From positions 558,001-622,000 of the forward strand of contig NZ_VWOX01000004.1 in assembly GCF_008629675.1 (NCBI RefSeq): DNA of 64,000 nt. The letters are read 5' to 3'. A model generated the notes under the pieces. That model was given only the letters and a program-made list of their open reading frames with translations, was not told the DNA's origin and made no database searches. Below are positions 3,541 through 59,132 of this stretch, piece by piece (positions within the stretch are counted from its first letter, which is position 1; every line of letters starts with the position of its first letter). A program made the position numbers and the translations under genes. This stretch comes from Roseiconus nitratireducens (lineage in GTDB: Bacteria; Planctomycetota; Planctomycetia; Pirellulales; Pirellulaceae).

Positions 3541-3661
3541 GCGGACGGCGCCACTTTGAATCAAAAACACCGTGATTTGCGGTGCAATGAGCGGCAAGGC
3601 GCCAGCCGCCGTTTGAGGCGCAGCTAACGCCACGCGGCTCACCCAAACTGGCGCTGTCCCG
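3541..3661 (-). repeat. MITE-like element, copy 1
   Basis: 121-bp non-coding palindromic element, one of five in this window. The left end reads GCGGACGGCGCCACTTT and the right end AAACTGGCGCTGTCCCG, which are near-perfect inverted repeats of each other. The inner part (GTGATTTGCGGTGCAATGAGC, then a block ending CGCGGCTCACCC) matches the other copies in reverse orientation. The element starts immediately after the TAG stop of the upstream gene. CTAG on the left and CCAG on the right are a possible decayed 4-bp target duplication. The rest of the 3541-3990 gap holds only the short palindrome at 3684-3710 and the leader of the DAHP synthase gene. Confidence 0.8.
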
Positions 3662-3683
3662 CCAGGCACTTCTTTGAAAACGA

Positions 3684-3710
3684 GTAGCTACGCTCGCCAG
3701 AGCGTGGCGT
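3684..3710. repeat. Short palindrome, copy A
   Basis: A self-complementary stretch built on ACGCTCGCCAGAGCGT. Its 24-nt core matches the reverse complement of 55252-55275 at 23 of 24 positions. Both copies lie a few tens of bases beyond a MITE-like element (copies 1 and 4), so the two repeats may travel or function together. It could form a hairpin in RNA. No T-run follows, so it is not a standard terminator. Confidence 0.6.
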
Positions 3711-3990
3711 ACCGGCGTCTGGCGACGGCAGCAACGGGATCACCGCAGCTTGCCCCTCGCTGCCCCCATTTTCGATGCACGCCATGTGCCCGGCTCCGAC
3801 GCGGCGAATCATTTGGGCGCGAACCCGACGTCTCGACAATGGTCCGTATTCATTTTGGCGAGATGGCGATCGGAACGACCGACATCGGCGTAGAAAGTGG
3901 TGCACCCGCTTGAAACTTGGGCCCGGAGCGCCAAACTCTCCCCAGCCACCCCCTCCCATCCTTTTCCTATCCTTTCAACCGGAATCATCC

Positions 3991-5001
3991 ATGATCGTGG
4001 TGATGGAGCAAAATGCGACCGAAGACCAGGTGAAATCGATCGCGTCTCGAATTGAAGCAATGGGCCTGAAAGCGACCGTGATCGTCGGCACCGAACGGAC
4101 CGTGATTGCGGCGATCGGCGAGAAGCGTGGCACGTTCAAGGATTCGATCGAAAGCTGTCCGGGGGTCTCCGAGGTCACGCCAATTTCGGCGCCCTACAAG
4201 ATGGCCAGCCGCGAGGTGCGGCCTGAGCCCAGCCTGATCCGGGTTCGCGATTTCGCCGCCGGAGCGGGACAGGTCGGGTATGTCGCGGGCCCCTGCAGCG
4301 TCGAAAGCGAAGAACAGTTGATGAGTTCCGCGCGGGCGGTCAAGGCGGCCGGCGCAACGGGGTTGCGGGGCGGAGCGTTCAAGCCACGCACCAGTCCGTA
4401 CAGCTTCCAGGGGATGAAGGAAGACGGCCTGAAACTGTTGTCGGCGGCCCGGGACGAAACGGGGCTGGCGGTTTTCACCGAGGTGATGGCCACCGAGGAC
4501 GTCGATCTGGTCGCCCGCTACGCCGACGTTTTGCAGGTCGGAGCCCGCAACATGCAAAACTACCGGCTGCTCGAAGCGGTCGGAAAAAGCGGCAAGCCGG
4601 TGCTGCTGAAACGTGGCGCGTCGGCGACGATGGACGAGTTCTTGCTGGCGGCCGAATACATCCTGAACGAAGGCAACGACCAGGTGATGCTGTGTGAACG
4701 TGGCATTCGCACGTTCGAGTCACACACGCGTTTCACCCTGCCGCTGGCCAGCGTCCCCTACCTGCATCGCCGGACGCACCTGCCGGTGATCATCGACCCC
4801 TCCCACGGCACCGGCCACACCTACATGGTTCACGATCTGGCCGTCGCCGCCGTTGCCGCCGGAGCCGACGGGTTGATCATCGAAGTCCACCCCGACCCCA
4901 GCAACGCGATGAGCGATGGGTACCAGTCGCAGACATTCGAGGCGTTTGCCGAAACGATGAAACGTTGCCGGAAAGTCCAAGCCGCGCTTGCCGAGGAGTG
5001 A
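3991..5001 (+). CDS. aroF: 3-deoxy-7-phosphoheptulonate (DAHP) synthase, AroF/AroG-beta type
   Basis: Condenses phosphoenolpyruvate with erythrose 4-phosphate, the first step of the shikimate pathway. It has 336 residues. Residues 1-70 form the ferredoxin-like N-terminal domain of the class Ibeta enzymes ([14 protein letters not shown]), which often carries feedback regulation. The barrel starts with GPCSVES (100-106) and [14 protein letters not shown] (128-141), with the IDPSHGTGH metal/substrate loop further on. The reading frame is open far upstream (from 3775), but residues before ATG 3991 show no family likeness, and 3991 gives the standard N-terminus. The gene ends in TGA at 4999-5001, four bases before the start of the following methyltransferase, so the two are probably co-transcribed. 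Confidence 0.93.
4993..4998 (+). promoter_or_regulatory. Ribosome binding site for the methyltransferase gene
   Basis: GAGGAG at the very end of the DAHP synthase frame, 7 nt before ATG 5006. It fixes the start of the next gene and rejects the upstream in-frame alternative at 4988, which would lie inside the aroF end. Confidence 0.6.
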
Positions 5002-5005
5002 ACCG

Positions 5006-6037
5006 ATGACGCTGACGCCAGAAGAAGCCGCGGCGCAGGGGGCGTCGATCCGGGCGGCCGGCGATCGGACCTTGCAACAGTACCACAACTGGATGCAGAC
5101 CAATGCAGCGTCGCACTTGATGCGAACGGCCCGCGAGGTCGGCATCACCGAACGCTTGCGAGAACGGCAACACACCCTGGACGAGCTGTGCCAGTCGCTT
5201 TCATTGGACCCTGACACGACCGCCCTGCTGCTGGACGCCTTGGTGGCGATCGGCTACGTCGAACAGTACCGAGAAGATTTCACGCTCGCCCGCGCCGGCC
5301 ATCTGCTGTGTCAGTACGACGACGACCTGGGCGACCAGAAGTGGAACACGCTGGCACAGCGGCTCCGCAAGGTGTCCGGTGCCTCTGAGGATGATGAAGA
5401 CGGCGCTATCGATGTTGAAGCGTATCGAGACCACCTGGCCGCAACCCAGTGGATCCATTCTTCGGCCGCGGTCCAAGCCGCGGAAATCCTGAACATTGGC
5501 GGCCAGGACGCCCCCGCCGGTCTGCGGATCCTGGACCTCGGCTGTGGTTCGGGTGTGTGGAGCTGCGCGATGGCGCACCAGGACGCCGAATCCACGGTGG
5601 TCGCGATCGATCAGGCGGGCCCCCTGCAAGCAGCCCGCACCACCGCCGATTCGATCGGGCTGGGCGACCGCTTCCAAACCATCGAAAGTGATCCGCGGTT
5701 GGCCACGCTGACCGAACAGGCGTTTGACCTGGTGATCATCGCACAGCAGCTGTCCGTGTGGGGCGACGAACAGGCGCTGGCCCTCCTTCGCAAAGCCGCC
5801 GGGGCGGTCAAGCCGGGTGGACGACTGGTGGCCCCCGACCTGTACGCAGGCCCCAGCCGGGCGGGACTGGATGAGGCCGCCGGCGCCCTGACCATTCACC
5901 TGCAGACCCCTGGCGGACGGGTCCGCGATCTTCGAGAAGCCCAGCAAATGTTCCAGCAGGCAGGCTTGCAATCCATCCAGTTCACTTTCCTGGCGGCCAG
6001 CCAGGAAGGACTGGGAATGGTCGTGGCCGAAAGATAG
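5006..6037 (+). CDS. SAM-dependent methyltransferase with winged-helix N-terminal region
   Basis: 343 residues. Residues 30-100 look like the winged-helix/dimerisation region of small-molecule O-methyltransferases (helical, with TAREVGITERL and LDALVAIGYVE). Residues 170-300 form a class-I SAM fold, with motif I as LDLGCGSGVWS (176-186), an acidic residue after strand 2 (VVAIDQAG), and a post-motif LVIIAQQLSVWGD. This architecture is typical of O-methyltransferases and C-methyltransferases acting on aromatic or polyketide-like substrates; the actual substrate cannot be told. The start was chosen from the GAGGAG site 7 nt upstream. Tight spacing to the DAHP synthase suggests one transcript, but a role in aromatic metabolism is only inference. 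Confidence 0.75.
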   Translation: MTLTPEEAAAQGASIRAAGDRTLQQYHNWMQTNAASHLMRTAREVGITERLRERQHTLDELCQSLSLDPDTTALLLDALVAIGYVEQYREDFTLARAGHLLCQYDDDLGDQKWNTLAQRLRKVSGASEDDEDGAIDVEAYRDHLAATQWIHSSAAVQAAEILNIGGQDAPAGLRILDLGCGSGVWSCAMAHQDAESTVVAIDQAGPLQAARTTADSIGLGDRFQTIESDPRLATLTEQAFDLVIIAQQLSVWGDEQALALLRKAAGAVKPGGRLVAPDLYAGPSRAGLDEAAGALTIHLQTPGGRVRDLREAQQMFQQAGLQSIQFTFLAASQEGLGMVVAER

Positions 6038-6144
6038 TCCGACTTTTTCGCAATCGTGGATTGACGAACCGCAGCCGCGATTTCTACCATGCTGGGCCAA
6101 AATAAACTCGTCAACACCTCCAGACAGACGTTCAACGAACAGCC

Positions 6145-6327
6145 ATGGCTGTACCAAAGCGAAAACACAGCAACAGTCGATCCGGCAAACGACGTAGCCA
6201 CGATCGCGTCAAGAAACGCCAGATCGGGTATTGCCCGCAGTGCAGCAGCTCCGTGCCGACCCACACGATTTGCCCTAAGTGCGGGCATTACATGGGACGC
6301 ACCGTTGTCGAACCTCGCGACGAGTAA
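6145..6327 (+). CDS. rpmF: 50S ribosomal protein L32
   Basis: 60 residues, the normal length for bL32. The basic N-terminus MAVPKRKHSNSRSGKRRSHD is characteristic. A zinc ribbon follows with all four cysteines present (C30, C33, C43, C46 in CPQC and CPKC), so this is the zinc-binding (C+) form. It lies just upstream of the fatty-acid synthesis genes, as in many bacteria, although plsX and fabH, which usually come between, are absent here. Confidence 0.95.
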   Translation: MAVPKRKHSNSRSGKRRSHDRVKKRQIGYCPQCSSSVPTHTICPKCGHYMGRTVVEPRDE

Positions 6328-6453
6328 TCGTTTCTCGATTCCTCTGTCCAACCTCTGCCGTGCATCCGCCGCGTGAGAGCCGCGTTCCCCGGGATTGCCC
6401 CGTGGAACCGGCGGTGACTACGCGGCGTTTTTATTTGGAGCGTTGCTGCCCCC

Positions 6454-7371
6454 ATGGACGTTAACTCCGTCGGAATCCTGTTTCCTGGCCAAGGTGCCCA
6501 AGCCGTCGGGATGGGACGGTGGCTATGCGAGACCTATCCGCTAGCGGCCGATCGATTTGCCCAAGCCGCGGACATTTTGGGTTACGACCTCCGCGAGTTG
6601 TGCGAGAAGGGCCCCGAAGAAAAACTGAACGCGACCGAGTTCAGCCAACCGGCGTTGTTCACCGTCGGGATAGCCGCGGCGGAAGTCCTGGCGGCCGAAT
6701 TCCCTGAACGCTTGCAGAATGTCACCGCGGCGGCGGGCCTGAGCCTGGGCGAGTACACCGCGGTCTGTTTCGCGGGTGGGCTTGATTTCCAGGACGCCCT
6801 GCGGCTGGTTCAGAAGCGTGGCCAGGCGATGCAAGCCGCCGCCGATGCGGTCCAAAGCGGCATGGCCAGTGTCTTGGGATTGGACCTGGAAACCTTGGAT
6901 AAGTTGTGCGGCCAGGCCCGGAACGACGACGTGCTCCGCCCGGCCAACCTGCTGTGCCCGGGCAACATCGCCGTGTCCGGTCACCTCACCGCCATCGATC
7001 GGCTGGAGAAAGCCGCTTTGGAAGCCGGTGCGATCAAGGTGGTTCGGCTGAACGTAGCCGGGGCTTTTCACACATCACTGATGCAGCCCGCGGTCGAAAC
7101 GCTGACGGCGGCCCTGAAAGAAATGCCACTCCGCCAGACACGAATTCCTGTCTACAGCAACGTTGACAGTGCCCCCCATCAATCGGCCGACGAAATCCGT
7201 GACCTGCTAAGCAAGCAAGTCACCCAACCGGTTCTCTGGGAAGCGTCCGTCCGCCGGATGATGCAAGACGGCGTGGAAGGTTTCCTGGAGGTCGGCACCG
7301 GGCGGGTGTTGCGAGGAACCCTGAAACGCATCGAACGAAAATTCCCCAGCGACGGTTTCGGCGACGAATAA
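6454..7371 (+). CDS. fabD: Malonyl-CoA:ACP transacylase
   Basis: Transfers malonyl groups from CoA to acyl carrier protein for fatty-acid elongation. 305 residues, as usual. The N-terminal FPGQGAQ motif (10-16) and the nucleophile elbow GLSLGEY with Ser97 are present. The usual His before the catalytic Ser (GHSLGE) is Leu here, a variant I know from plant, cyanobacterial and chlamydial FabD, so activity is not in doubt. The second catalytic residue is the His in AGAFHTSLM (around residue 205), and the C-terminal Gln-containing QVTQPVLWE is also present. It is followed by fabG after a 65-bp gap, consistent with an operon. Confidence 0.95.
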   Translation: MDVNSVGILFPGQGAQAVGMGRWLCETYPLAADRFAQAADILGYDLRELCEKGPEEKLNATEFSQPALFTVGIAAAEVLAAEFPERLQNVTAAAGLSLGEYTAVCFAGGLDFQDALRLVQKRGQAMQAAADAVQSGMASVLGLDLETLDKLCGQARNDDVLRPANLLCPGNIAVSGHLTAIDRLEKAALEAGAIKVVRLNVAGAFHTSLMQPAVETLTAALKEMPLRQTRIPVYSNVDSAPHQSADEIRDLLSKQVTQPVLWEASVRRMMQDGVEGFLEVGTGRVLRGTLKRIERKFPSDGFGDE

Positions 7372-7436
7372 GCGGCTCGTCCGCCCGAAACGTGTCCCGC
7401 ACCGAACCTGATCCCCTTTTTTCCCAAGCGAATCTC

Positions 7437-8195
7437 ATGGAATTGTCACTCAAAGCAGATCTGTCCGGCCAGGTTGCGATCGTCACCGGCGCGTCGCAGG
7501 GACTGGGCAAAGCCGTGGCGATCGGACTGGCGATCAATGGCGCCACGGTTGCTTGTCTGGCGCGCAACGAAGAGAAACTTGCGGCAACCGTTTCGGAGAT
7601 CGAAGCGGCGGGCGGCAAAGCCAAAGCCGTGGCCTGCGACGTGACCGACCGTCAAGCAGCCGACGCCGCCATCAAATCGGTGGCGGAAGATTTGGGCCGC
7701 CTGGATATCCTGGTCAACAACGCCGGAATCACCCGCGACAAGCTGATGCGGGGAATGAGTGACGAGGAATGGGACAGCGTGATCGCGACCAACCTGACCA
7801 GTTGCTTTGTCTGCTGCCGCGCCGCGGCCGGGATCATGCGAAAAAAGAAGTACGGCCGAATCATCAACATGGCCAGCATCTCGGGTCTGATCGGCAACCC
7901 CGGCCAGGCCAACTACTCGGCCAGCAAGGCGGGCATGATCGGGATGACGCGAACGATGAGCAAGGAGCTGGTCAGCCGCGGCGTGACGGTCAACGCGGTA
8001 GCGCCGGGATTCATCGCCAGCGACATGACCGACGCGATCCCCGCCGGAATTCTGGACGAGGTCAAGAAAGCGATCCCCGCCAAACGCGTGGGTGAACCCG
8101 AAGAGGTGGCGGCCGCCGTGCTGTTTCTGGCGTCCAAAGAAGCCGGGTACATCTCCGGCCAGGTCCTGGTGGTCGACGGCGGCATGACCGGCTAA
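7437..8195 (+). CDS. fabG: 3-oxoacyl-[ACP] reductase
   Basis: NADPH-dependent SDR that reduces beta-ketoacyl-ACP in type II fatty-acid synthesis. 252 residues. Visible motifs are the cofactor loop TGASQGLG (17-24), NNAG (94-97), and the catalytic tetrad N119, S147, Y160 and K164 (GQANYSASKAG). The C-terminal SGQVLVVDGGMTG is also typical. The frame is open from 7392, but ATG 7437 gives the standard N-terminus. It sits between fabD and acpP in the common gene order. Confidence 0.94.
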   Translation: MELSLKADLSGQVAIVTGASQGLGKAVAIGLAINGATVACLARNEEKLAATVSEIEAAGGKAKAVACDVTDRQAADAAIKSVAEDLGRLDILVNNAGITRDKLMRGMSDEEWDSVIATNLTSCFVCCRAAAGIMRKKKYGRIINMASISGLIGNPGQANYSASKAGMIGMTRTMSKELVSRGVTVNAVAPGFIASDMTDAIPAGILDEVKKAIPAKRVGEPEEVAAAVLFLASKEAGYISGQVLVVDGGMTG

Positions 8196-8240
8196 GTTGC
8201 CCCGCTTGCCGGCAGGCCTCAGAGAGTCGATTGCGGGATA

Positions 8241-8270
8241 TTGACGCCTTTTGCTTCTTTCCCCTATCTT
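8241..8270 (+). promoter_or_regulatory. Candidate sigma-70-like promoter for acpP
   Basis: In the 268-bp gap after fabG, TTGACG (8241-8246) is followed after 18 nt by TATCTT (8265-8270), a fair match to the -35/-10 consensus. A separate acpP promoter would fit the high ACP demand of cells. Assigned by eye only. Confidence 0.35.
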
Positions 8271-8463
8271 TTCGACGAATCGACGACGCGTCTCCGGGCT
8301 CTTGCTGGTGCGGGAATCGTTCGCGACCGGCGGATCCGGTCGGCGGAGGCTCTCCCGCAACCCAATTTGATTAGAAACCCTTGGCGTCTCGTTCCTCCCG
8401 ATCACGAGGGGCGTTTCGTTCCCTTGAACATCCCTTTGCAGAACAAACATTTGGAGATTGCTT

Positions 8464-8709: not shown

Positions 8710-8825
8710 CATTGCCGATCGTTCGGTCAAGCCTGCACCGACGATGACGCTTTGCCGCCCGAGAACGGTTTGGCGCCGCAGGTCCGTCGACCGCGCGCCA
8801 GCTTTTGAGGGCGGTATTTTCTTGA

Positions 8826-10139: not shown

Positions 10140-10277
10140 TCTCTCCCCGCCGACCTGCTTGCGGCGACACAAGACCAGTCAAGCCGGCGCGCGCGGAGCA
10201 ATCCTCGGCGGGCCGAACATCGTTCGGCGGACACGATTTGTCGGACAGGATTCGGCGGGACTGGTAAGCTGAGACCT

Positions 10278-27804: not shown

Positions 27805-27932
27805 CTGGACAGCACCACTTCGGGAGAGCCGCGTGGCGTTAGACGCGGGTTCTCTCGCGTCAATCGGCGGCGAGCGCCTTGCCGCTCACAGCACTGCAAA
27901 TCGCAGTCTTCTTGATTGAAAACGCTGCCCCG
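27805..27932 (+). repeat. MITE-like element, copy 2
   Basis: 128 bp from CTGGACAGCACCACTT to GAAAACGCTGCCCCG, with internal GAGCCGCGTGGCG and CCTTGCCGCTCA blocks shared with the other copies. The right end stops directly at the TAG stop codon (CTA at 27933-27935) of the minus-strand propeller gene. Flanks are TTGA and CTAG, so no target duplication is retained. Confidence 0.8.
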
Positions 27933-30900
27933 CTAGCGCAACGTCTTCAGATACGCCACCAGATCACGAACCTCCTGGGCTGACAACACGTCGGTCATCG
28001 TGGGCATCAGCGAGACCTTACGCTCCGCCACCTCTTCGATCTGATCGGTTGGAATCTGGATCTCCGTTCCGTCCTGTGTCAGCAACATCGTCGATTCATC
28101 GGTTTCCGAAACGATCACCCCCTGAGCCACCGAGCCGTCGGCCAGCAGCAATGTTTGCGTGTTGTACTTGGGCTCGATATCTGCACTGGGCAAGACGATA
28201 GCGCGCAGCAAGTGGTCTGCGTCCCGCTGCCTCGCGATCTTGGTCAATTCCGGCCCGATCTCACTGCCTTCTTTCCCGACTCGGTGACAACGGACGCACT
28301 GGGCACGGACGTCGGTGCGGAACATCTGCTCTCCGCGCCCAGCGTCGCCTCCGTCCCGGGCGAAATGAAACGGAATCAGATTGGCCGACTCGACGGTCTG
28401 CAACTCGGGTAGCTGCTGAACCGCATTCCAGCGATCTTCCACCATCGGGTTTTCGGCGGCCCGACTTTGCAACGCTTGCCAGACGTCCAAACGCAAACCG
28501 TTTGGCAACTTGCCGGTCAGAAAGTCCTTCGCCAAATCGTTGATCGCCGCATCGGCTTTGGCGGTCCCCAATTCCGCCAGCCCAGAAACGCACGCCTGGC
28601 GAACCGCCAGACTCTTGGCTTTCAATTGTTGTTCGATCACCGCGCCGGCGCGTTCCGGCGAGACCTGAACGAGTAATCCGATCGCACGACTGGCAATCGC
28701 CGGCGACGGATCCTCAGCAAGCTCTTGCAGCAGCTCCGCCGCTCCGGAACCGGCCTCGGCCAGAGTCTGCATCGCTTCCATTCGCAAATCGTCAGGAAGA
28801 GACCGGTCGGTGGCCATCGCTCCGAGGGCTTCGCTGGACAAATCGATCTTGAGCTGCCGCGACGCCTGGACCGCGGCGATCCGCAGGGGAGTGTCACTGT
28901 CGGTGACCAGTCGGGCCAACAAAGTCGCGCAGGCATCGCGATCGATCTCACGTCCAGGCTCGTAGGCCCTGCGGCGACCGTCAACTCGATCCAACAGAGG
29001 AGGATCCATCCACTGGCCGAGTGCCTGACAGGCGTTGCGTCGCATCGCGATCGATCGACCAGCGTCGGCAGCAAACGCCATGACCGCTGCGGCTCGCGCC
29101 GAAGATCCCAAGCGAAAATTCGCGTTGATGCTGCGGAGAACCATCGGGGTTGGCCGAGATTGCGTTGCGTTCAAGGTGGATGCGAGCGCGCCCATCGCCT
29201 GTGGAATCGAGCGGTCGTCGTGAATCGCACGCGCCGCTTCGGTGGCGATATGGTCCGAGGGGTCATCCAAAAACGCCGCGATGAGCGGACTTTCCTGACG
29301 GCGTAGTGCCAATGTTGCGCACAGACGTCGACTCTCCGAATGGCTTTCCGCTTGGTCGGCCAAGGTTTGCGCGTCGCTGCAGGCCGCCAATCCCGTCACC
29401 AGGGCGTGTCGCAAGTAGTGCTGATGCTCCTCCAAAGAATCCGACTGCCGCAGCAGGACTTCGGTCGCATTGCCGCTGGGTTGGCGTCCCAACGCCAGCG
29501 CCGCGTGAATCCGCACGTGCGGGTGTTCGTCATGAAGCAACGGAATCAGGACTTCCGGATCACTCTCGTTGATCTCTCCCAACGTCTTGGCCGTCTGGGC
29601 CCGGATGATCCAGTCCGGATCGTTCAGATAATCATTCAAGCCACTCGGATCGACCCCGCCGGAGCGTGACAACTGTCCGAGGCCCCAGATCGCATGCAGA
29701 CGGGCGAGTTGGAGCGCCTCAGGATCGGCCGCGACAGCTTGCAACAGGTCACCGCGCTCGCGTCGCACCAAAGCGAATTGGGCCCGCAGGCGGACCCGTT
29801 GATCGACGTTTGCCAGTAGCCGGACAAGGTCTTCCGCCGTCAGCGTGTCCAATCCCGATGAAAGCAGGGCGAGAGCAGATTCGCGATCGTTCCTGTCCTG
29901 CTCCGACAAGGCGGAGGGCGGGACGTCAATCCGAATCACGCTTCCGGATTGGTTCAACGGATACCCGCCTCCCCAATCGACTCCGTACAGACCGCCGTCG
30001 GGACCGAACGCGATTCCCACGATCGGGTCGCCGCTACCGATCACGTGCGAGTCAACCATTTGAAAGGAATCGCCGTCGACCTGCGTTCGAAACGCGTACT
30101 GCGAACCGTTGGGCGCGCCAGTCAGAAAGAAGTAGTCACGGTACGCTGACGAAAGCGCCGCCCCCGGGTTGAATTTGAATCCGGCTGGACCGTCGTAGTA
30201 GTGACGGATCGGCGGGATCAGATAGGCGGGATGATCTTCCCCCGCGAGTTCCCACAGCTTTTCATCGGTCCAGGGATTGTATTGATCCCCGCGATACTGG
30301 TAATTGCATCGCCAACCGGCATCCATTGCGTCGACGATCCAAACGAAACGCTCTTGTTCCTTGGGCTGATCCGCATCGTTGTCGACGCCAAAGAGATTCC
30401 CGTATTGGTCGAACGCGACTTCCTGCACATTCCGCAGACCGTGCGCAAAGACCTCGAAATCAGACCCATCCGGGTTGCACCGCAGGACGCCGCCCTGGTT
30501 TGGAAAGTCGAACACGCGACCATCGTCCGCCGTGACGTGAATCCCCTTGTCACCGATGGACCAATAAACCTTTCCGTCGGGGCCGACCGTCAATCCATGC
30601 ATGTCGTGTCCCGCGTACGCGATGTGCAATCCGAATCCGGTCGCCATCACTTGCCGCTCATCGGCCACGCCATCACCGTCGGTATCGGTCAATTTCCAAA
30701 CATCCGGAGCGATCGTTGCCCAAACCGATCCGTCCCAGTGCATCACTCCAGCGGCGATTCCAGTGACTTCGCTTTGAAACCCTTCGGCAAACAGGTTGAT
30801 AGCGTCCGCCCGACCGTCGGCGTCCTGATCGACCAGGCGGTGGATGCGTTCACTGATCACGGTCAAATCACGCCAGTCATGCTGCCCATCCTGATTCACA

Positions 30901-31307
30901 TCTTGCACATGTTCCGCCTGGCGTTCCTGGTCCCCACCGACCGCCAGGACGCGATGCAAGAATTCGCGTTTGGCCTCCACACTGTTCAGGCCGACGTCAT
31001 CGGGAATCCAATCCTTGTGCATCCGAATATCCAGATCCTGGATCTTTCGGCGCTGCGTCTGGGTCACGTACACGTCACCGTTATCAGCCACGCTGATGGC
31101 GACGGGATCGGGGACGTTGATTGCTCCGCTCCAACGCTCGTATTTCAACGGCACCCGCCCGCCCCGCCCAGGATCAAGGACCGGCTCCGGATCTGCCGGT
31201 GATGGATCTGCCGGTGACTGGGCACAGGCGGTCACCGCGATGGGAGGACTGGACAACACTCCGACAAGCAGCAGCCGGAACAGGAAGGACAAACGGAAGT
31301 TGGACAT
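27933..31307 (-). CDS. PVC-type membrane-bound dehydrogenase: beta-propeller, HEAT repeats, haem c
   Basis: 1124 residues. A signal peptide ends in VTAC (C28), a possible lipobox. Residues 45-470 form a glucose/sorbosone-dehydrogenase-like beta-propeller (GLTVGPDGKVYWSIGDKG, GIAFGPDGGLYGVDWGGG). It has two Ca2+-loop-like insertions (DVNQDGQHDW, DTDGDGVADE). Residues 490-960 are HEAT repeats (VLIPLLHDEHPHVRIHAALAL). The C-terminus is a cytochrome-c domain with CVRCH at 1004-1008 and a distal Met in SLMPTMTDVL. This is the widespread planctomycete/verrucomicrobial architecture; oxidation of a sugar or alcohol with electron transfer to haem is inferred. It faces MITE copy 2 at its stop codon. 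Confidence 0.85.
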   Translation of the reverse strand: MSNFRLSFLFRLLLVGVLSSPPIAVTACAQSPADPSPADPEPVLDPGRGGRVPLKYERWSGAINVPDPVAISVADNGDVYVTQTQRRKIQDLDIRMHKDWIPDDVGLNSVEAKREFLHRVLAVGGDQERQAEHVQDVNQDGQHDWRDLTVISERIHRLVDQDADGRADAINLFAEGFQSEVTGIAAGVMHWDGSVWATIAPDVWKLTDTDGDGVADERQVMATGFGLHIAYAGHDMHGLTVGPDGKVYWSIGDKGIHVTADDGRVFDFPNQGGVLRCNPDGSDFEVFAHGLRNVQEVAFDQYGNLFGVDNDADQPKEQERFVWIVDAMDAGWRCNYQYRGDQYNPWTDEKLWELAGEDHPAYLIPPIRHYYDGPAGFKFNPGAALSSAYRDYFFLTGAPNGSQYAFRTQVDGDSFQMVDSHVIGSGDPIVGIAFGPDGGLYGVDWGGGYPLNQSGSVIRIDVPPSALSEQDRNDRESALALLSSGLDTLTAEDLVRLLANVDQRVRLRAQFALVRRERGDLLQAVAADPEALQLARLHAIWGLGQLSRSGGVDPSGLNDYLNDPDWIIRAQTAKTLGEINESDPEVLIPLLHDEHPHVRIHAALALGRQPSGNATEVLLRQSDSLEEHQHYLRHALVTGLAACSDAQTLADQAESHSESRRLCATLALRRQESPLIAAFLDDPSDHIATEAARAIHDDRSIPQAMGALASTLNATQSRPTPMVLRSINANFRLGSSARAAAVMAFAADAGRSIAMRRNACQALGQWMDPPLLDRVDGRRRAYEPGREIDRDACATLLARLVTDSDTPLRIAAVQASRQLKIDLSSEALGAMATDRSLPDDLRMEAMQTLAEAGSGAAELLQELAEDPSPAIASRAIGLLVQVSPERAGAVIEQQLKAKSLAVRQACVSGLAELGTAKADAAINDLAKDFLTGKLPNGLRLDVWQALQSRAAENPMVEDRWNAVQQLPELQTVESANLIPFHFARDGGDAGRGEQMFRTDVRAQCVRCHRVGKEGSEIGPELTKIARQRDADHLLRAIVLPSADIEPKYNTQTLLLADGSVAQGVIVSETDESTMLLTQDGTEIQIPTDQIEEVAERKVSLMPTMTDVLSAQEVRDLVAYLKTLR

Positions 31308-52273: not shown

Positions 52274-52287
52274 TCGCAAGCCTTGCC

Positions 52288-53019
52288 ATGACGACGCCGC
52301 TGGAACAGAAATCATCGACCGATCAGATTCGCGAACGGTTTGACGGGTATGTCGAAAAGTTCTCGACGTTGGAGACCGGCCAAACGACCACCATCGACGC
52401 CCCGCTGGCGATGGATCTGATCACTCGCGCCGCGGTTGCCAGCACCTTTTCGATCCGGCGCGTCCTGGACATCGGCTGCGGTGCCGGCAACAACACGCTG
52501 AAACTGCATCGCTTGCTCCGTCGCCCGTTCCACGCGGACCTGCTGGATTTGAGCCGTCCCATGCTGGACCGCGCCGCGCTCCGGGCGAGCGAATCCGGAT
52601 TGACCGAGATCTCACGTTGGCACGGTGATTTCCGAACCGCCGATCTGCCGGAGGAGTCGTACGATGTCGTCTTGGCAGCGGCCGTTTTGCACCACCTTCG
52701 CGATGACGCCGATTGGCAGTCCGCCTTCGGCAAAGTGTTTCGGTTGCTCGCCCCCGGCGGCAGCTTTTGGATCACCGACCTGGTCGCCCACGAGGGCGCC
52801 GCGGTGCAAGGAATCATGTGGCAACGCTACGGAGAGTATCTCACCGGATTGGGCGGCGAAGCCTATCGCGATCAAGTCTTTGACTACATCGACAAGGAAG
52901 ATTCCCCGCGGTCGGTGACGTACCAGTTGCAACTGCTGCGGGAGGTCGGGTTCGAGCAGGTCGATCTGCTTCACAAGAATTCTTGCTTTGCCGCTTTCGG
53001 AGCCGTCAAACCAAAGTGA
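52288..53019 (+). CDS. Class I SAM-dependent methyltransferase
   Basis: 243 residues from ATG 52288. Motif I is VLDIGCGAGN (59-68), the acidic end of strand 2 is DLLDLSRPML, and motif post-I includes YDVVLAAAVLHHLRDD. The layout is like the CmoA and UbiE-type small-molecule or tRNA-modifying methyltransferases, but neither is confirmed. It follows the SUI1-family gene by 14 bp, so the two are probably one operon, perhaps linked to translation. Confidence 0.72.
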   Translation: MTTPLEQKSSTDQIRERFDGYVEKFSTLETGQTTTIDAPLAMDLITRAAVASTFSIRRVLDIGCGAGNNTLKLHRLLRRPFHADLLDLSRPMLDRAALRASESGLTEISRWHGDFRTADLPEESYDVVLAAAVLHHLRDDADWQSAFGKVFRLLAPGGSFWITDLVAHEGAAVQGIMWQRYGEYLTGLGGEAYRDQVFDYIDKEDSPRSVTYQLQLLREVGFEQVDLLHKNSCFAAFGAVKPK

Positions 53020-53090
53020 CCCCAAGCATTGGGCGTTCATTGGCTTCGTTTGTTGGATCTGGTCGGCGTTTCAATGCGACCTCGGACTAC

Positions 53091-53221
53091 CTGGACAGCA
53101 CCACTTCGGGTGAGCCGCGTGGCACTCGGCGCGGGTTTTCTCGCCTCAACCGGCGGCTAACGCCTTGCCGCTCATTGCACTGCAAATCACGGTGTTTTTG
53201 ATTGAAAGCGGCGCTGTCTTG
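53091..53221 (+). repeat. MITE-like element, copy 3
   Basis: 131 bp from CTGGACAGCACCACTT to AAAGCGGCGCTGTCTTG. It is bracketed by the same tetramer CTAC (53087-53090 and 53222-53225), a perfect 4-bp target duplication. The right CTAC includes the TAG stop codon of the minus-strand sulfatase. The best-preserved full-length copy in the window. Confidence 0.85.
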
Positions 53222-54907
53222 CTACTGCGCTTTCAAATAATCGACGTGGTAGTCGTCCGGCAGCGGCGTGACCTGATTGGTCCGGGCCCAATCGTCCCAC
53301 GCTGCTGACAGAGACCGCACGATTTCCGTGTTCGTCTTTGCCAGATCCTTGGATTCGATCGGGTCGGTCATCAGGTCGTAAAGTTCCCAGGGTTCGTCTC
53401 GGAGTGCCACCAGCTTCCAGCGGCCTCGGCGGACGCCGCGGTTCCCTTCATGCTCCAAAAAAATCGTCCGCGGAACGGCCGGCTCGCGGTTCAATTCCGA
53501 AACGAAACTTGCCCCCGCCAGCGGAAACTCTGATTCTGACCGTCGGGACACGTCGATTCCGGCAGCGTCCAACAACGTCGGGACGATGTCGATCAAGTGC
53601 GCAGGGGCGTGAACCAGGCTCCCCTGTGATGCCCGAAGCCCCGCTGGCCAGTGCACAATGCAGGGAGTCAACACGCCGCCCTGATGGCAAAAGTGCTTGT
53701 ACAGCCGAAACGGAGTGTTGCAGGCGTTCGCCCATCCCGACCCCAGACTATGAAACGTTCCGGCGGTCCCCATGCGATCCAATTCCTCACCGCGATGAAG
53801 AATGTTTTGGTTGCTGCTCTTGATATCGAAGCCGTGTGGATCCCATTCGGCGCAGGCGCCGTTGTCCGATAGAAAGATGACCAACGTGTTGTCCAACTCG
53901 CCGGCCTGGCGAAGATTGCCAATGACTTGCCCCACGCCCCAGTCCAAACGGTGCACCATGGCGGCATAGATCGCCATCCGGCGAGCCAAGTCCTGACGAC
54001 GGTCGGGATCCAAGTCATCCCATGGGGGATTCGTTCCCGAACGCGTCTGGCCATAGTTCCAATAATGCGATCGTGAAGAAAGATCCGTGTCGTCGGGAAC
54101 GATCCCCAGCCGTTTCATCCTTGCCAGCCGTTCGCGACGGATCACGTCCCAACCCACGTGATAGCGACCGGCATATCGCGAGATGTCCTCGCGGCGTGCT
54201 TGCAACGGAAAGTGCGGCGCGTTGTAGGCAAGGTACAAAAACCACGGGCGTTCCGCAGTCGTTCGCGCTGCTGCCAAGAACTGTTGCGCCCGCTCGGTCA
54301 GTGCATCGGTTCCATAGAAGGACCGCGCGTCGTTTGTTTCGACTTGCGGCAACCCGGCAGGCGGAGATCTTTCCGAATCGGCCGGAATCGACAGATAATG
54401 GTCGGGATCCCAAAACGTTTTGGCGCTCACCAACGTGCCATAGAAACGTTCGAAACCGTGACGCGTCGGATCGTCAGTTCCCAGGTGCCACTTCCCCGAC
54501 AGAAAACAACGATAGCCTGCTCCACTGAACCTGTCCGCCACCGTCTTCGCCGCCGGATCGATTCGACCACGGTACCCAGGCCGGCCGATATCCTGGGTCA
54601 TGTGCCCGAGTCCAACGCGATGGGGATACTGACCGGTCAACAGACTTGCCCGCGAGGGACAGCATCGCGCCGTCGTGTAGAACTGTGTCAGCCGGATGCC
54701 GCCGGCCGCCAAGGCATCCAGGTTTGGAGTTTCGATTTCGCCTCCGTAGCATCCCAGGTCACTGTAGCCCAGGTCGTCGGCGACGATCAGCAGGACGTTG
54801 GGTGGCGCCCCCTCGTCGGCTCGGGAGCACGCGGCAACCATCGCGGACAAGATCCAGCCGAGTTGGAAAAGGAGGCGGCGATGGAAGAATGCGAATCGTT
54901 GCGTCAT
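53222..54907 (-). CDS. Type I sulfatase, possibly lipid-anchored
   Basis: 561 residues from ATG 54907; the frame is open 20 codons further. The leader ends VAAC (C27), a reasonable lipobox, so the enzyme may be membrane-anchored. NVLLIVADDLGYSDLGCYG follows. The formylglycine motif is C82-C-P-S-R86, then ASLLTGQYPHRVG. GKWHLGTDDPTRHGFERFYG and SDNGACAEWDPHG are the usual ligand-bearing regions. The length and AEWDPHG stretch fit the long arylsulfatase A type common in planctomycetes. Its stop is at the edge of MITE copy 3. Confidence 0.9.
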   Translation of the reverse strand: MTQRFAFFHRRLLFQLGWILSAMVAACSRADEGAPPNVLLIVADDLGYSDLGCYGGEIETPNLDALAAGGIRLTQFYTTARCCPSRASLLTGQYPHRVGLGHMTQDIGRPGYRGRIDPAAKTVADRFSGAGYRCFLSGKWHLGTDDPTRHGFERFYGTLVSAKTFWDPDHYLSIPADSERSPPAGLPQVETNDARSFYGTDALTERAQQFLAAARTTAERPWFLYLAYNAPHFPLQARREDISRYAGRYHVGWDVIRRERLARMKRLGIVPDDTDLSSRSHYWNYGQTRSGTNPPWDDLDPDRRQDLARRMAIYAAMVHRLDWGVGQVIGNLRQAGELDNTLVIFLSDNGACAEWDPHGFDIKSSNQNILHRGEELDRMGTAGTFHSLGSGWANACNTPFRLYKHFCHQGGVLTPCIVHWPAGLRASQGSLVHAPAHLIDIVPTLLDAAGIDVSRRSESEFPLAGASFVSELNREPAVPRTIFLEHEGNRGVRRGRWKLVALRDEPWELYDLMTDPIESKDLAKTNTEIVRSLSAAWDDWARTNQVTPLPDDYHVDYLKAQ

Positions 54908-55090
54908 GGCTGAGTTCAGCGAGCGGAAGAACAGAATCGAGATTCGGTGACAGCGGGGCCTCGGCATCGGCTTTCCCGTCGACGGAACGATCTGGCAGCC
55001 CGAAGAATTCGGCAGCCTGAACGATTCGGCAGCATGGAACGCGAATGGTTACACTGTCTGGACGGTGTCCCTTTTCAGCGGACAGCCTAT

Positions 55091-55221
55091 CTGGTTGGCA
55101 CTCCTTTTGAATACAGACACCGTGATTTGCAGTGCAGTGAGCGGCAAGAAGCTCGCGGCCGATTGACGCAAAAAAACCAGTGGCGAACGCCACGCGGCTG
55201 ACACAAAGTGGCGCTGTTCAG
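55091..55221 (-). repeat. MITE-like element, copy 4 (diverged)
   Basis: 131 bp in the 448-bp gap between two divergent sulfatase genes. The right end AAAGTGGCGCTGTTCAG is good; the left (CTGGTTGGCACTCCTTTTGAATA) is decayed. The internal ACCGTGATTTGCAGTGCAGTGAGCGGCAAG is close to copies 1 and 3. No flanking duplication is visible, and this is the only copy not at a stop codon. The rest of the gap holds the short palindrome at 55252-55275. Confidence 0.7.
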
Positions 55222-55251
55222 TGTCGCTGTTCAGTGGCCGAACCACATTCT

Positions 55252-55275
55252 CCACGCTCTGGCGAGCGTGGCTAC
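55252..55275. repeat. Short palindrome, copy B
   Basis: Built on ACGCTCTGGCGAGCGT, the reverse complement of the core at 3684-3710 with one mismatch in 24 bases. It lies 31 bp beyond MITE copy 4 and 80 bp upstream of the next sulfatase start. Confidence 0.6.
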
Positions 55276-55355
55276 TTTAGAATCCGACTTCCGCTGGCGA
55301 GAGACAGCGGAGTTCCCACCAATGTTCCCCATCCTCAATCTTCCAACCTTCCGTG

Positions 55356-57221
55356 ATGAAATACGTTTTGCTGCTCGCTTGCCTGGCCGCTTCGTCAATT
55401 CCGGCGTCGGCCGCCGACAACCAACGCCCCAACATCCTGTGGCTGTTTGCCGAAGACACGTCTCCGTGGATGGGTTGCTACGGCGACCCGATCAACCGCG
55501 GTCACACGCCCAATATTGATTCCCTGGCGGATCGTGGCGTGCGGTTTTCCCGCGCCTACGTCCCGGCCCCGGTCTGTTCCGCTTGTCGTTCGGCATTGAT
55601 GGGGGGCCAGAACCAGATCCGCTTCAATGCCCACGAACATCGTTCCAGTCGCGGCCCCGCCAAGTTGTCTCTTCCCGATGGAATGAAACTTTTGCCACAA
55701 CTTGTCAAGGAAAGCGGGTACTTCACGTTCAATCTTGGGAAGACCGATTACAACTTCGTCTGGGATGAACCCGCCACCTACTCCCTGATGCGCAAGAATC
55801 GCGCCGACATTCCCTGGGAAGATCTAAAAGACAATCAACCGTTCTTCGGGCAGATCCAAACGGCCGGCGGCAAGAACAACACCACAAAATTTCCCCAGGA
55901 TCGCAAGGTCGACCCGTCGACGGTCACCGTCCCGCCCGACTATCCACAGAACCAGATTTACCGCGAGGTCGTCGCGCAACACTACGACGCGATACGGAAA
56001 GACGACGACTTCATCGGCGAGGTTCTGGCGGGACTGGACGAAGCCGGGCTTCGTGACAACACGATCGTCGTGTACTTCAGCGATCACGGCGCCAACAACC
56101 TGGTGCGTCACAAACAAATGCCAACCGAGGGCGGCCTGCACGTGCCGTTCATCATCGCGGGCCCCGCGCCCTACGTCCCGTCTCCGTCGGTGCGCGATGA
56201 CCTGGTGAACCTGCTGGATCTTTCCGCGACGACGCTCGCGTGGGCCGGCGTGGACCAGCCGGAATGGTACGAAGGGCAAAACCTGTTCGATGAGATTGTG
56301 GTGCCGCGGATCTACGTGGCAGCGGCCAAAGATCGGTTGGACCACACCATCGATCGTGTCCGCAGTCTGCGAACGGACCGCTTTCGGTACACCCGCAACT
56401 ACAAAACCGATCGGATCTTTCTGCAGCCCCAGTACCGTGATGATCGACCGTTCGTGCAAAACCTCCATCAGCTGTACCGATCCGGCGAGCTCTCTCCCAC
56501 GTTGACGGAAATCTATTTCGGCGAACGTCCGGCCGAAGAGTTCTACGATGTGCAACAGGATCCGAGCCAGGTCCACAATCTGATCGATGACGAAGCGTAC
56601 GCCGATCAGGTCCAGCGACATCGAGAATTGTTGGACCAGTGGCTGGCCAAGGGGGATGACGGGATCGGCGAGGAGTCTCGAGAAGAACTGGCCTACCAGG
56701 CGATGGATCACAAGTGGGGACAAGCGGTCAACCCGGAATACGAACTTGTTCGCGAGGACCACGATGGAGACGGACTTTCGGACAAATGGGAAACGATCAA
56801 TGATCGCGACCCGGATGACGGGAAACTTCTGTTCCAATTCGACTGCGGCGGCTGGCAGACCGAAGGTTGGACCGCGACGGATCCGGACGTCGGGAATATT
56901 GCCGGACGACTCGGATTCCTGGACTTTCCGTTGCCCGGGGGCGAAGCGATGATCGCCAGGAACGGGCTAAAGCTCTCGCCCGAACAGAATGACGGTCAGC
57001 TGCTCGTGCGTCTGCAGGCTCCGCCATCGACGAAGATCACCCTGCTAGCGGCGGCGGTCGATGAAACGTTGCAACCGATCGGATCGGCGACCACCGAATC
57101 CGACGATTGGCAAACCGTTGCGATCCCAATGCACCCGGCCAAGCCGATCGCTGAAATCCGGCTGCAATTGCGGGGCAAGCCAGACTCTATCGTCCAGATC
57201 GATTCGATCCACATCGAGTAG
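55356..57221 (+). CDS. Type I sulfatase with C-x-A-x-R motif and C-terminal extension, secreted
   Basis: 621 residues from ATG 55356 (a GTG three bases earlier is in frame). Signal peptide (YVLLLACLAASSIPASA), then NILWLFAEDTSPWMGCYGD. The formylglycine motif is C74-S-A-C-R78, with Ala in place of the usual Pro; C-x-A-x-R is a known minor variant of type I sulfatases. FNLGKTDYNF stands where KWHLG is expected, and FSDHGANNLVRHKQ carries the other ligands. A C-terminal Ca2+ loop-like stretch (REDHDGDGLSDKWE, about residue 475) leads to a beta-rich tail. The heparan- or exo-sulfatase-like type is possible. Confidence 0.85.
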   Translation: MKYVLLLACLAASSIPASAADNQRPNILWLFAEDTSPWMGCYGDPINRGHTPNIDSLADRGVRFSRAYVPAPVCSACRSALMGGQNQIRFNAHEHRSSRGPAKLSLPDGMKLLPQLVKESGYFTFNLGKTDYNFVWDEPATYSLMRKNRADIPWEDLKDNQPFFGQIQTAGGKNNTTKFPQDRKVDPSTVTVPPDYPQNQIYREVVAQHYDAIRKDDDFIGEVLAGLDEAGLRDNTIVVYFSDHGANNLVRHKQMPTEGGLHVPFIIAGPAPYVPSPSVRDDLVNLLDLSATTLAWAGVDQPEWYEGQNLFDEIVVPRIYVAAAKDRLDHTIDRVRSLRTDRFRYTRNYKTDRIFLQPQYRDDRPFVQNLHQLYRSGELSPTLTEIYFGERPAEEFYDVQQDPSQVHNLIDDEAYADQVQRHRELLDQWLAKGDDGIGEESREELAYQAMDHKWGQAVNPEYELVREDHDGDGLSDKWETINDRDPDDGKLLFQFDCGGWQTEGWTATDPDVGNIAGRLGFLDFPLPGGEAMIARNGLKLSPEQNDGQLLVRLQAPPSTKITLLAAAVDETLQPIGSATTESDDWQTVAIPMHPAKPIAEIRLQLRGKPDSIVQIDSIHIE

Positions 57222-57348
57222 CGGTGCCCGCCGGGGACCACGAATTGGACGTTGCGTCGCCCCGCGACTGAGAGATTCAGGCTGGGCGATGCGTGTGGCC
57301 CGCCCATGATGCCGCATTGCGGTCGGTGCCACATTGCGGTCAATGCCG

Positions 57349-57798
57349 CTACAGCAGGCAGTCGTTGCAGCGGCCACGCAACAGAATTTCCGTGATCTCG
57401 CCCACGCGGGAACTATTTCGCAAGCTTCCGGCGGTCAGCCGCACATCGCCCAGACAACGGACCGCGCCACAGTCGACACACAAGAAATGTGGATGGGCGC
57501 TTTGGTCGTCGGCCCCCGGACGAATCGCCTCGAATCGCCAAACGTGGTCGCCCAACTCGGTCCGCCGCAGCAAACCGGACTCGGCCAAGTCGTTCAAGTT
57601 GCGAAACACCGTCGCCTGGTCGATCCCGGAATCAGCCAAGGATTCGGCAACCGTGGCGTGCGTCAACGGCGATGACGACTGCCGCAACAATCGCAGCGTG
57701 GCGACGCGAGCGGGTGTTGCGCGCAGCCCCGATCGGCGAATGTCGTCACGCACTTCCTCCAGCGAAAGTGCCGCATCTCGTTTCGGTTCAGCGTCCAT
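57349..57798 (-). CDS. zur: Fur-family metal regulator, probably Zur
   Basis: 149 residues. The N-terminal winged helix (VRDDIRRSGLRATPARVATLRLL, then DQATVFRNLNDLAESGLLRR with the recognition helix) is followed by a dimerisation domain with H102 and H104 (HPHF), structural zinc cysteines C107/C110 (CVDC), and C144/C147 (CNDC). Fur, Zur and PerR cannot be separated by these residues alone. The choice of Zur rests on the divergent ZIP-type zinc transporter and the palindrome between them. With excess metal it should repress the transporter and itself. Confidence 0.75.
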   Translation of the reverse strand: MDAEPKRDAALSLEEVRDDIRRSGLRATPARVATLRLLRQSSSPLTHATVAESLADSGIDQATVFRNLNDLAESGLLRRTELGDHVWRFEAIRPGADDQSAHPHFLCVDCGAVRCLGDVRLTAGSLRNSSRVGEITEILLRGRCNDCLL

Positions 57799-57834
57799 GA
57801 ATCCAAATCACCTCATGATTCGCCGGGCAAAGGA

Positions 57835-57889
57835 GTGGTTCCCGGGGACAGGGTACCCGCTGACAGTGGTTCCCCGGCACAGCGTACCC
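57835..57889. repeat. Direct repeat of a 24-bp motif, period 31 bp
   Basis: GTGGTTCCCGGGGACAGGG-TACCC starting at 57835 is repeated, with a few differences, as GTGGTTCCCCGGCACAGCG-TACCC starting at 57866. The GGGGACAG core recurs in the tandem repeat near csrA (minus strand). It lies in the promoter region of the Fur-family regulator gene. Confidence 0.5.
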
Positions 57890-57892
57890 TAA

Positions 57893-57913
57893 TGCAATTG
57901 ATTTGCAAGTGCA
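57893..57913. promoter_or_regulatory. Candidate Zur operator
   Basis: A perfect-armed palindrome TGCANTTG-N5-CAANTGCA between the divergent Fur-family regulator and ZIP-type transporter, 95 bp upstream of the regulator's ATG and 78 bp upstream of the transporter's. Size and symmetry suit a Fur/Zur dimer. It is inferred from position; no binding evidence exists. Confidence 0.5.
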
Positions 57914-57990
57914 TCGCTGTTACCCGTAGCCAACCGCCCCGGGATCGCGTACCATCTGCCGGCCCTTAACATTCCCTTTGCAATCTGCTG

Positions 57991-59049
57991 ATGTCTCCCG
58001 GCTCTCTCCTATTTGTCTATTGCGTCTTTATCTTTGCGGCCTCCAATGCCGGCGGACGCCTTTCCGATTTGATCCGGATGACGCACCTGCGGACTCAGCT
58101 GTTGATGAGCGGCGTGGCCGGATTGATGCTGGGAATTGCCATGCTGCATCTGCTGCCGCACGCCGGCGAAATCTTGCAGTCATCGACCAAGACCGGAGCC
58201 GGATCCCTGTTGGGACTGATCGCAATGTTCTTGCTGATCCGATTGTTCCACACCCATGACCACAGCGGATCCGTGGCACGACCGGCCGTCACCGACGCCG
58301 TCTCCGAAGATGGACTTCCGTCGGGCGCTGACGATCGCCAAGATCACTCATCGCACCACGACCATGATCACGACCATGCTCATGACCATGACCATGACCA
58401 CGACGGACACGGCCATCATGATCATGATCACCACGCGCACGCCCACCTGCATTCGCGGATCGGCAACGCAGGACATTCGCATGACCACACGCCGACCGGA
58501 CGAAGGTTCGGATGGGCGGGCGTTTTCTTCGGCCTGACCCTGCATACGTTGATCGACGGCGTCGCGTTGGCCAGCAGCGTGATCGCCGATGCCTCGCACG
58601 GTAGCTCCCTGGGACTTGCCGGAATCGGAACGTTCCTGGTGATTGTGCTCCACATCCCGCTGGATTCATTCGCCATCACGTCGGTAATGAGCCGTCAAGG
58701 TTGGTCCTCACAGGCCCAGCGGACCGCCAGCCTGCTGTTTTCGCTGGCCTGTCCGATCGGCGCGGCCTGCTTTTACTTGGGCGTGACGCGACTGATTCAG
58801 GGAACTGAAATCCTGGGCTGGGGCCTGGCGATCTCCGCAGGCTTCTTTATCTGCATCGCCCTGGCGGACCTGCTTCCCGAAGTCGCGTTTCACGATCACG
58901 ACCGCGGAAAACTGACCGCCGCCCTGCTGTTCGGCGTGGCCATCGCGGTCACCATCGAGAACCTGCCGGGGCACAATCACGACCACGGGTCGGGAGAATC
59001 GAGTCCTGGCGAACACGGCGCTTCGGAACCGCACATCCATCAGTTCTAG
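57991..59049 (+). CDS. ZIP-family metal (zinc) transporter with His-rich loop
   Basis: 352 residues, about eight membrane spans. A long His/Asp loop (119-166, with repeated HDHDHDH) separates the third and fourth spans, as in ZIP proteins. The metal-site motif HTLIDG (185-190) lies in the fourth span, with LHIPLDSFAI in the fifth. ZIP transporters import Zn2+ or other divalent metals into the cytoplasm. It is divergent from the Fur-family gene, and the operator-like palindrome lies in its promoter region. The stop codon TAG is part of the flank of MITE copy 5. Confidence 0.88.
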   Translation: MSPGSLLFVYCVFIFAASNAGGRLSDLIRMTHLRTQLLMSGVAGLMLGIAMLHLLPHAGEILQSSTKTGAGSLLGLIAMFLLIRLFHTHDHSGSVARPAVTDAVSEDGLPSGADDRQDHSSHHDHDHDHAHDHDHDHDGHGHHDHDHHAHAHLHSRIGNAGHSHDHTPTGRRFGWAGVFFGLTLHTLIDGVALASSVIADASHGSSLGLAGIGTFLVIVLHIPLDSFAITSVMSRQGWSSQAQRTASLLFSLACPIGAACFYLGVTRLIQGTEILGWGLAISAGFFICIALADLLPEVAFHDHDRGKLTAALLFGVAIAVTIENLPGHNHDHGSGESSPGEHGASEPHIHQF

Positions 59050-59132
59050 CTGCACAGCGCCACTTTGGGTGAGCCGCGTGGCGCTCATTGCACTGCAGAT
59101 CATGGTGTTTGATTGAAAGTGGCGCTGTCCAG
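59050..59132 (+). repeat. MITE-like element, copy 5 (internally deleted)
   Basis: 83 bp from CTGCACAGCGCCACTTT to AAAGTGGCGCTGTCCAG, with the central part of copies 2 and 3 missing (GCGTGGCG joined directly to CTCATTGCACTGC). The flanks are both CTAG (59046-59049 and 59133-59136), a perfect 4-bp duplication. The left CTAG contains the TAG stop of the ZIP-type transporter gene. This is the clearest evidence that these are transposed elements. Confidence 0.88.

Follow-up and report, generated by a model that had tools for sequence, protein, structure and literature searches.

Short repeats at stop codons in Roseiconus nitratireducens are very probably miniature elements with IS701-type ends

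Why do several copies of one short repeat end exactly at the TAG stop codon of a neighbouring gene? The question is raised by a 64,000-nucleotide stretch of the Roseiconus nitratireducens genome (contig NZ_VWOX01000004.1, positions 558,001 to 622,000, hereafter the window), in which an earlier note on the DNA had described five elements as a family resembling miniature inverted-repeat transposable elements (MITEs). The computational analysis reported here leads to an explanation that is, taken as a whole, very probable: the repeats are non-coding MITEs that carry the terminal inverted repeats of an insertion sequence (IS) of the IS701 family, and they would insert at CTAG-like tetramers, with stop codons serving as harmless targets.

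All five elements of the window were found to be real and to share terminal inverted repeats. A 17-bp end pattern (up to 3 mismatches) matched the window 8 times compared with 0.18 expected matches, and every match was located at an end of one of the five elements; two further ends, on the right of copy 2 and on the left of copy 4, exceed 3 mismatches to the pattern and were recognisable in the alignment alone. The flanks read as the earlier note had given them, with perfect 4-bp duplications at copy 3 (CTAC/CTAC) and copy 5 (CTAG/CTAG), the only two that survive in the window, and CTAG/CCAG at copy 1. Genes were called with a simple codon-usage caller that was trained on the window only and was also used on the other genomes. 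The caller placed TAG stops exactly at copies 1, 2, 3 and 5, in agreement with the claim that four out of five copies lie at the TAG stop of the adjacent gene.

The family extends across the host genome (G000, an 8.2-Mb draft that is 93% complete). The genome-wide search for the ends that the earlier note had proposed was run and returned 155 matches to a 13-bp end core (up to 1 mismatch) compared with 20 for the reversed control, and an internal 19-mer (up to 3 mismatches) returned 160 matches compared with 2, which places the family size at about 160 motif matches. The repeat is short, with a consensus of 131 bp, non-coding and multicopy, as is characteristic of MITEs. Copies were sampled from 100 of the 155 end-core matches and 100 of the 160 internal matches; the 131-bp consensus was scored on 40 of 247 first-look candidates (47 matches), the listed places were merged into 145 spots, and 92 further regions were fetched beside loci already in the set. 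The 252 distinct hidden Markov model matches include many reverse-strand echoes, and 81 elements passed with no more than 5 mismatches out of 17 at either end and enough flanking sequence. The host-genome counts of tetramer pairs and boundary stops below use these 81 elements; the other matches, window copies 2, 4 and 5 among them, lie outside the set. Tandem arrays of a MITE plus its flank were observed at two loci (L295:1406-2414, a 304-bp unit repeated 3.3 times; L053:1350-1750, a 156-bp unit repeated 2.6 times).

In 16 of the 81 elements the same tetramer stands on both sides, compared with 4.7 after permutation, and none of 10,000 permutations reached 16. The identical pairs consist of CTAG (5), CTAA (3), TTAG and CTAC (2 each), and CTGG, TTAA, CCAG and CGAA (1 each), and removal of the CTAG/CTAG pairs leaves 11 identical pairs out of 76 compared with 3.6 permuted (p=0.0004). 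No element among the 81 has flanks that are identical over 5 or 6 bp. At other loci, identical tetramers were found in 35 out of 63 paired elements, a set that was mostly fetched with a CTAG-containing pattern and that includes one chance pair located inside an autonomous element (L339). The 4-bp target duplication is real and lies outside the inverted repeat, and the same length of 4 bp was found in the MITEs and in the autonomous elements of the IS701 type. The reading of the earlier note as MITEs with a 4-bp duplication of a TA-centred tetramer at stop codons is borne out.

These autonomous elements provide the candidate partner. The earlier note had supposed a transposase acting in trans and had suggested a search for a full-length copy with the same ends, and such copies were found in a congener and seven other genera. 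In a congener (G002), a 28-bp inverted repeat, CTAGCTGGACAGCGCCACTTCGTGGCTT, encloses a PF13546 transposase, and the left CTAG of the element contains the TAG stop of the adjoining reading frame (L303 5-484, supported by the gene caller). A search with the first transposase frame against 396 genomes of the order gave matches in 47 genomes, and eight distinct elements were fetched at a transposase identity of at least 50%, representing eight genera and three families. All eight have ends of the form [CT]TGGACAGC[GC]CCA (with one end of the G387 copy one base off), lengths of 1632-1785 bp, and flanks of CTAG, CTAA or TTAG that are the same on both sides in six elements. None of 22 fetched loci with a transposase identity of 46% or less has a pair of MITE-type ends, and several of them show different ends beside CTAG, CTAA or TTAG; a transposase fragment with 48% identity in G374 lies about 33 bp from a MITE-type end. 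Based on the shared ends and duplications, the MITEs may be mobilised in trans by a transposase of this type.

The assignment to IS701 is based on profiles and on catalytic residues. In one element (L338), frame A matches positions 1-152 of the IS701 profile NF033540 (NCBIfam) with 142.8 bits and frame B positions 152-362 with 143.8 bits, each half, scored separately, being below the whole-protein cut-off of 150; PF13546 (DDE_5, Pfam) is above its cut-off in both frames. Inspection by eye places the first D (DET/DES) in frame A and the other two catalytic residues, D and E, in frame B; in the seven elements with a frame B long enough to include it, the E region shows R-(3)-E-(6)-K and lacks the Y of YREK (AFGRWKVEACFREAK and kin). 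The ends do not follow, again by eye, the printed IS701 end consensus ---YACT-Y--YR, which the passages available describe as not representative of the whole family (PMC2266710).

Two other candidates for a partner were rejected. An end pair spanning 2985 bp (L209) was judged to be a chance pair, with its ends inside phage-like coding sequence, and apart from this pair the search for full-length elements, which covered six viral-contig matches and neighbouring ends of convergent orientation no more than 6 kb apart in the loci gathered by then, found no pair between 409 bp and 6 kb. PF01609 transposases were tried at 30 out of 47 matches (L306-L335), none of which is enclosed by good ends; these loci show scattered end matches at 3-5 mismatches out of 16, and one of them carries the ends of a second family. 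In G128, the IS701-type element (L339:1296-3080 and beyond) shares a CTAA with what appears to be an adjacent IS701 element whose ends are of a different type (TACTAC...).

A single uninterrupted transposase frame is usual for the IS701 family, whereas all eight autonomous elements shift to the -1 frame at one common place. Seven elements have 7-8 consecutive A at this site, preceded by CG or CGT, and the G002 copy reads CGAATAAAAC; the alignment consists of the eight frame-split elements only. The second frame of the G128 copy is interrupted further, and one or two stop codons are marked in the transposase matches of G226, G171, G224 and G387, of which those of G226, G171 and apparently G387 are located upstream of a start that is conserved near MSLQDI, and the G224 one lies just past the A run. 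One site hit in eight genera is improbable for random decay, and the frame change was therefore read as programmed: a -1 frameshift probably makes the transposase of the autonomous relatives. Ribosomal and transcriptional slippage are both known at A runs, according to the passages available (PMC3711429), and would leave the same trace in these sequences. No description of a frameshifted IS701 element was found in the open-access literature searched, and according to the passages available the IS4 family, out of which IS701 was split, is characterised by having no frameshift (PMC2266710).

How often, then, do the elements meet a stop codon? For 23 of the 81 elements a facing gene has its stop exactly at the element boundary, in one of them on both sides, resulting in 24 gene ends with TAG in 16 elements and TAA in 7. 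The other 55 facing gene ends are spread from -8 to +347 bp (10 at 1-24 bp, 22 at 25-100 bp, 22 farther away and one 8 bp inside the element), and 19 copies have no facing gene end within 400 bp. No element is located inside a called gene, partly by construction as an insertion breaks the frame, and the gene end at -8 bp is the only one that runs into an element. The earlier note would have been contradicted by genomic copies without duplications at random distances from stops, a picture at odds with the 16 identical pairs (4.7 permuted) and the 24 gene ends at distance 0. Outside the host genome, a stop was found at 8 out of 67 ends that were not CTAG-selected and at 17 out of 151 CTAG-selected ends.

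The tabulation of flanks and stop distances proposed in the earlier note also yields an expectation for the 23 boundary stops. CTAG is rare (17 sites in the window compared with 39 expected), but the suggestion of the note that the tetramer is most available at stops goes too far, since the 130 CTAG sites outside elements in the fetched host-genome regions comprise 21 stops, 69 intergenic sites and 40 sites inside called genes. With sites inside genes set aside, stops account in these regions for 21/90 CTAG, 16/175 CTAA/TTAG, 24/279 CTAC/GTAG and 0/957 CTGG/CCAG sites. If targets follow the intact duplications, of which 5 out of 16 are at stops, the expected number of insertions at stops is about 9.2 (the observed 23 has p=2.5e-5), and it rises to 18.9 if every target was CTAG (p=0.17). 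The supply of tetramers accounts for two fifths to four fifths of the boundary stops, and the all-CTAG assumption leaves the remainder to chance. Much of the coincidence with stops is attributable to a CTAG-like target together with the loss of gene-breaking insertions, a loss that selection would have caused.

The proposed mechanism joins these observations. An IS701-type DDE transposase would move the MITEs in trans into a CTAG-like tetramer (CTAG, CTAA or TTAG, less often CTAC, CTGG or CCAG), and the 4-bp duplication visible in the flanks would result. CTAG, CTAA and TTAG are depleted within genes yet often contain TAG or TAA stops, and a good share of the harmless targets would therefore be stop codons. 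Insertion at a stop should recreate the stop on the gene side and leave the protein unaltered, and insertions within genes were presumably removed by selection. The autonomous relatives would express their transposase via the -1 frameshift at the A run, and in the host genome, where the autonomous element is undetected, the copies are decaying.

Several observations weigh against this explanation or parts of it. A perfect duplication is kept in only 16 of the 81 copies. None of the five intact CTAG/CTAG copies is located at a stop, which speaks against a strong preference for stops, and the same coincidence was found at only 1 out of 13 testable ends of autonomous elements. The core of the host-genome MITEs is, by eye, unlike the interior of the autonomous copies seen, and a simple origin by internal deletion is unsupported. 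PF13546 has no match in the 93%-complete draft of the window genome, and present mobility is unsupported in this genome, where no autonomous element was detected. The window genome is not alone in this respect: MITE-type ends were identified in 14 out of 60 relatives, and PF13546 has no match in G013, G044, G047 and G057 and one weak match in G029, all of which carry the ends. Orphan MITE sets thus seem common, and the copies in the window genome look like orphans of their transposase.

The explanation was weighed against four others. The element itself might supply the stop, with its CTAG end truncating genes near their 3' end as reported for REP (repetitive extragenic palindromic) sequences tagged with GTAG; the excess of gene ends at distance 0 would look identical under this alternative. 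Orthologues of two host genes were compared in congeners. For the gene at copy 1, none of the 13 orthologues has an element end in its vicinity and all 13 stop at the residue seen here or at the next one, using CTAG in four, CTAA in one, TTAG in one and ATAG, GTAG, GTAA, GTGA or CTGA in the rest; this stop codon is older than the insertion and represents the one clear case. For the gene at copy 5 the comparison is divided: 7 out of 13 orthologues run 4-39 residues beyond the present end, as expected for truncation, and in 6 out of 13 the end lies 0-8 residues before the present one or coincides with it. The most similar orthologue (G008) ends in CTAG. Truncation by the element is, on balance, a minor prospect. 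We consider it similarly improbable that the repeats are terminators or RNA-stabilising hairpins that spread along gene ends for their function. Many copies are located at gene ends and the typed family consensus folds strongly (-78.8 kcal/mol, z -8.4; z -14.2 for an element of another genome and -2.4 to -5.0 for four window copies), but inverted repeats must fold. In an alignment of 72 copies, base pairing is preserved to the same degree as in shuffled controls (paired cells 0.868 vs 0.868; double changes 22 vs 21.6), which points to neutral decay (mean column identity 0.90), and the covariation shows no sign of a selected RNA structure; RNAalifold kept 3 pairs. Terminator-like sites in 52900-59400 number 8 compared with 6.1 (sd 3.0) in shuffles, Rfam gave no match in the window at gathering thresholds, and the 19 copies without a nearby facing gene end do not fit a function at gene ends. 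The suggestion of the earlier note that the downstream hairpins serve as terminators is unsupported.

The remaining two alternatives concern the transposase. Palindromes of the REP or REPIN kind, moved by a tyrosine transposase (RAYT, HUH), would also be short, palindromic, TAG-flanked and multicopy. However, direct 4-bp duplications occur here with non-palindromic tetramers, to our knowledge GTAG-tagged REPs have no target duplication, and the same ends are borne by an autonomous DDE element, which largely refutes this alternative and makes it highly implausible, although no search aimed at RAYT genes was made. Finally, the duplication might be TA with CTAG belonging to the inverted repeat, as in IS630-like elements. 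CTAG is its own reverse complement, so that CTAG/CTAG copies, the one given in the earlier note among them, fit a duplication as well as an inverted repeat that extends further. The copies flanked by CTAA/CTAA, TTAG/TTAG, CTAC/CTAC, CTGG/CTGG and CCAG/CCAG are direct, inverted identity of the tetramers is at the permuted level (4 vs 3.8), and the partner is IS701 rather than IS630; the probability of an IS630-like arrangement is close to nil.

Table 1. Elements, host genes and related features (window positions)
Feature	Position	Strand	Remarks
MITE copy 1	3541..3661	-	121 bp; left tetramer CTAG 3537-3540, right CCAG 3662-3665
MITE copy 2	27805..27932	+	128 bp; left flank TTGA, right tetramer CTAG 27933-27936
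MITE copy 3	53091..53221	+	131 bp; identity to the consensus used 91%; CTAC perfectly duplicated, 53087-53090 / 53222-53225
MITE copy 4	55091..55221	-	decayed; flanks CTAT/TGTC; not at a stop codon
MITE copy 5	59050..59132	+	83 bp, internal deletion; perfect duplication CTAG 59046-59049 / 59133-59136
Host gene of copy 1	1624..3540	+	TAG stop is the copy 1 target, within left CTAG
Host gene of copy 2	27933..31154	-	TAG stop is the copy 2 target, within right CTAG
Host gene of copy 3	53222..54850	-	TAG stop is the copy 3 target, within right CTAC
Host gene of copy 5	57991..59049	+	TAG stop is the copy 5 target, within left CTAG
GCTCTGACTGAAA	59137..59149	+	probably what is left of an end of a second family, IS5-like and also targeting CTAG; abuts the right duplication of copy 5
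Autonomous elements L336-L343			genomes G002, G405, G374, G128, G226, G171, G224, G387

The comparison was extended to MITEs of other genomes. Clustering (blastn) of 65 paired elements from other loci with the host consensus gave 17 clusters, one of which is the L339 chance pair; the host consensus clusters via L143 and L192 (76-84% over 63-67 bp). The ends appear conserved, and the cores seem to be often, not always, unrelated. An exact search of named genomes gave at least 114 stretches, and the 80 listed belong to the Pirellulales, Pirellulaceae, other Planctomycetota and one bin titled 'bacterium'; among those listed, one is titled Kuenenia, a planctomycete outside the Pirellulales, perhaps as a result of a binning error. 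Two further repeats were observed beside window copy 4. After its right end comes cgctgttcagtg in two copies, a short direct duplication (55212-55236), and a palindromic repeat at 55248-55275, 3 mismatches from GTAGCYACGCTCTGGCGAGCGTGGCTAC, is similar to palindromes in the MITE cores of G002 and G013.

A second family is associated with the MITEs. The tetramer is directly followed by GCTCTGTCTGAAA (up to 4 mismatches out of 13) in 18 of 162 MITE flanks, compared with 0-1 at eleven other offsets, and GCTCTGTCTGAAA forms the end of an IS5-like element of G002 (PF01609) whose inverted repeat is CTAGGCTCTGTTTGAAAAC (L334:1043-1986). This family shares the CTAG target and inserts beside MITEs, perhaps because each insertion doubles the target.

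A wider picture can be drawn in which an IS701 clade of this planctomycete order combines a transposase controlled by a -1 frameshift, a preference for gene ends beyond tetramer supply, MITEs with exchangeable cores and stops as safe havens, and a stacked unrelated IS5-like family; we offer it tentatively and regard it, in this full form, as rather unlikely. The very probable explanation, IS701-type MITEs at CTAG-like tetramers, provides a clean example of a transposon whose target sequence, a rare tetramer able to contain a stop codon, keeps the host from harm. It names a likely transposase for a repeat that is present in many genomes of planctomycetes, and it leads to the prediction of a programmed frameshift in an IS family for which we found none described, and the annotation of gene ends in these genomes should take the elements into account.

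Parts of this picture are already known, as far as the available passages of the sources extend: a MITE with 4-bp CTAG/YTAA duplications, REPs that supply TAG stops, and IS701 elements with 4-bp duplications. No report of this repeat family or of IS701 MITEs at stops was found in the open-access literature searched. The passages available describe IS701 elements as typically 1400-1550 bp with 4-bp duplications and a catalytic motif without the Y of YREK (PMC2266710), and two Geobacillus members reportedly have duplications of 4-9 bp, indicating that 4 bp is usual and not universal (PMC8024623). The planctomycete elements agree with this family in the DDE transposase, the 4-bp duplications, the missing Y and the matches to NF033540 and PF13546, and differ in their greater length (1632-1785 bp), their end sequence and the conserved -1 change that splits the transposase (PMC2266710). 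MITEPsy1 of Pseudomonas syringae is similar in being non-coding (100 nt), in its 18-bp ends and 4-bp CTAG/YTAA duplication, and in that it is thought to be mobilised by the transposase of another element; in contrast, its ends resemble ISPsy2 (listed as IS5?), 2 out of 6 copies interrupt loci, and an association with stop codons is unmentioned in the passages available (PMC3189936). The GTAG-tagged REPs, reported in Planctomycetes as well, share palindromic repeats and a TAG at the gene junction with the family described here, but according to the passages available they have an HUH tyrosine transposase and the repeat itself supplies the stop (PMC3733652).

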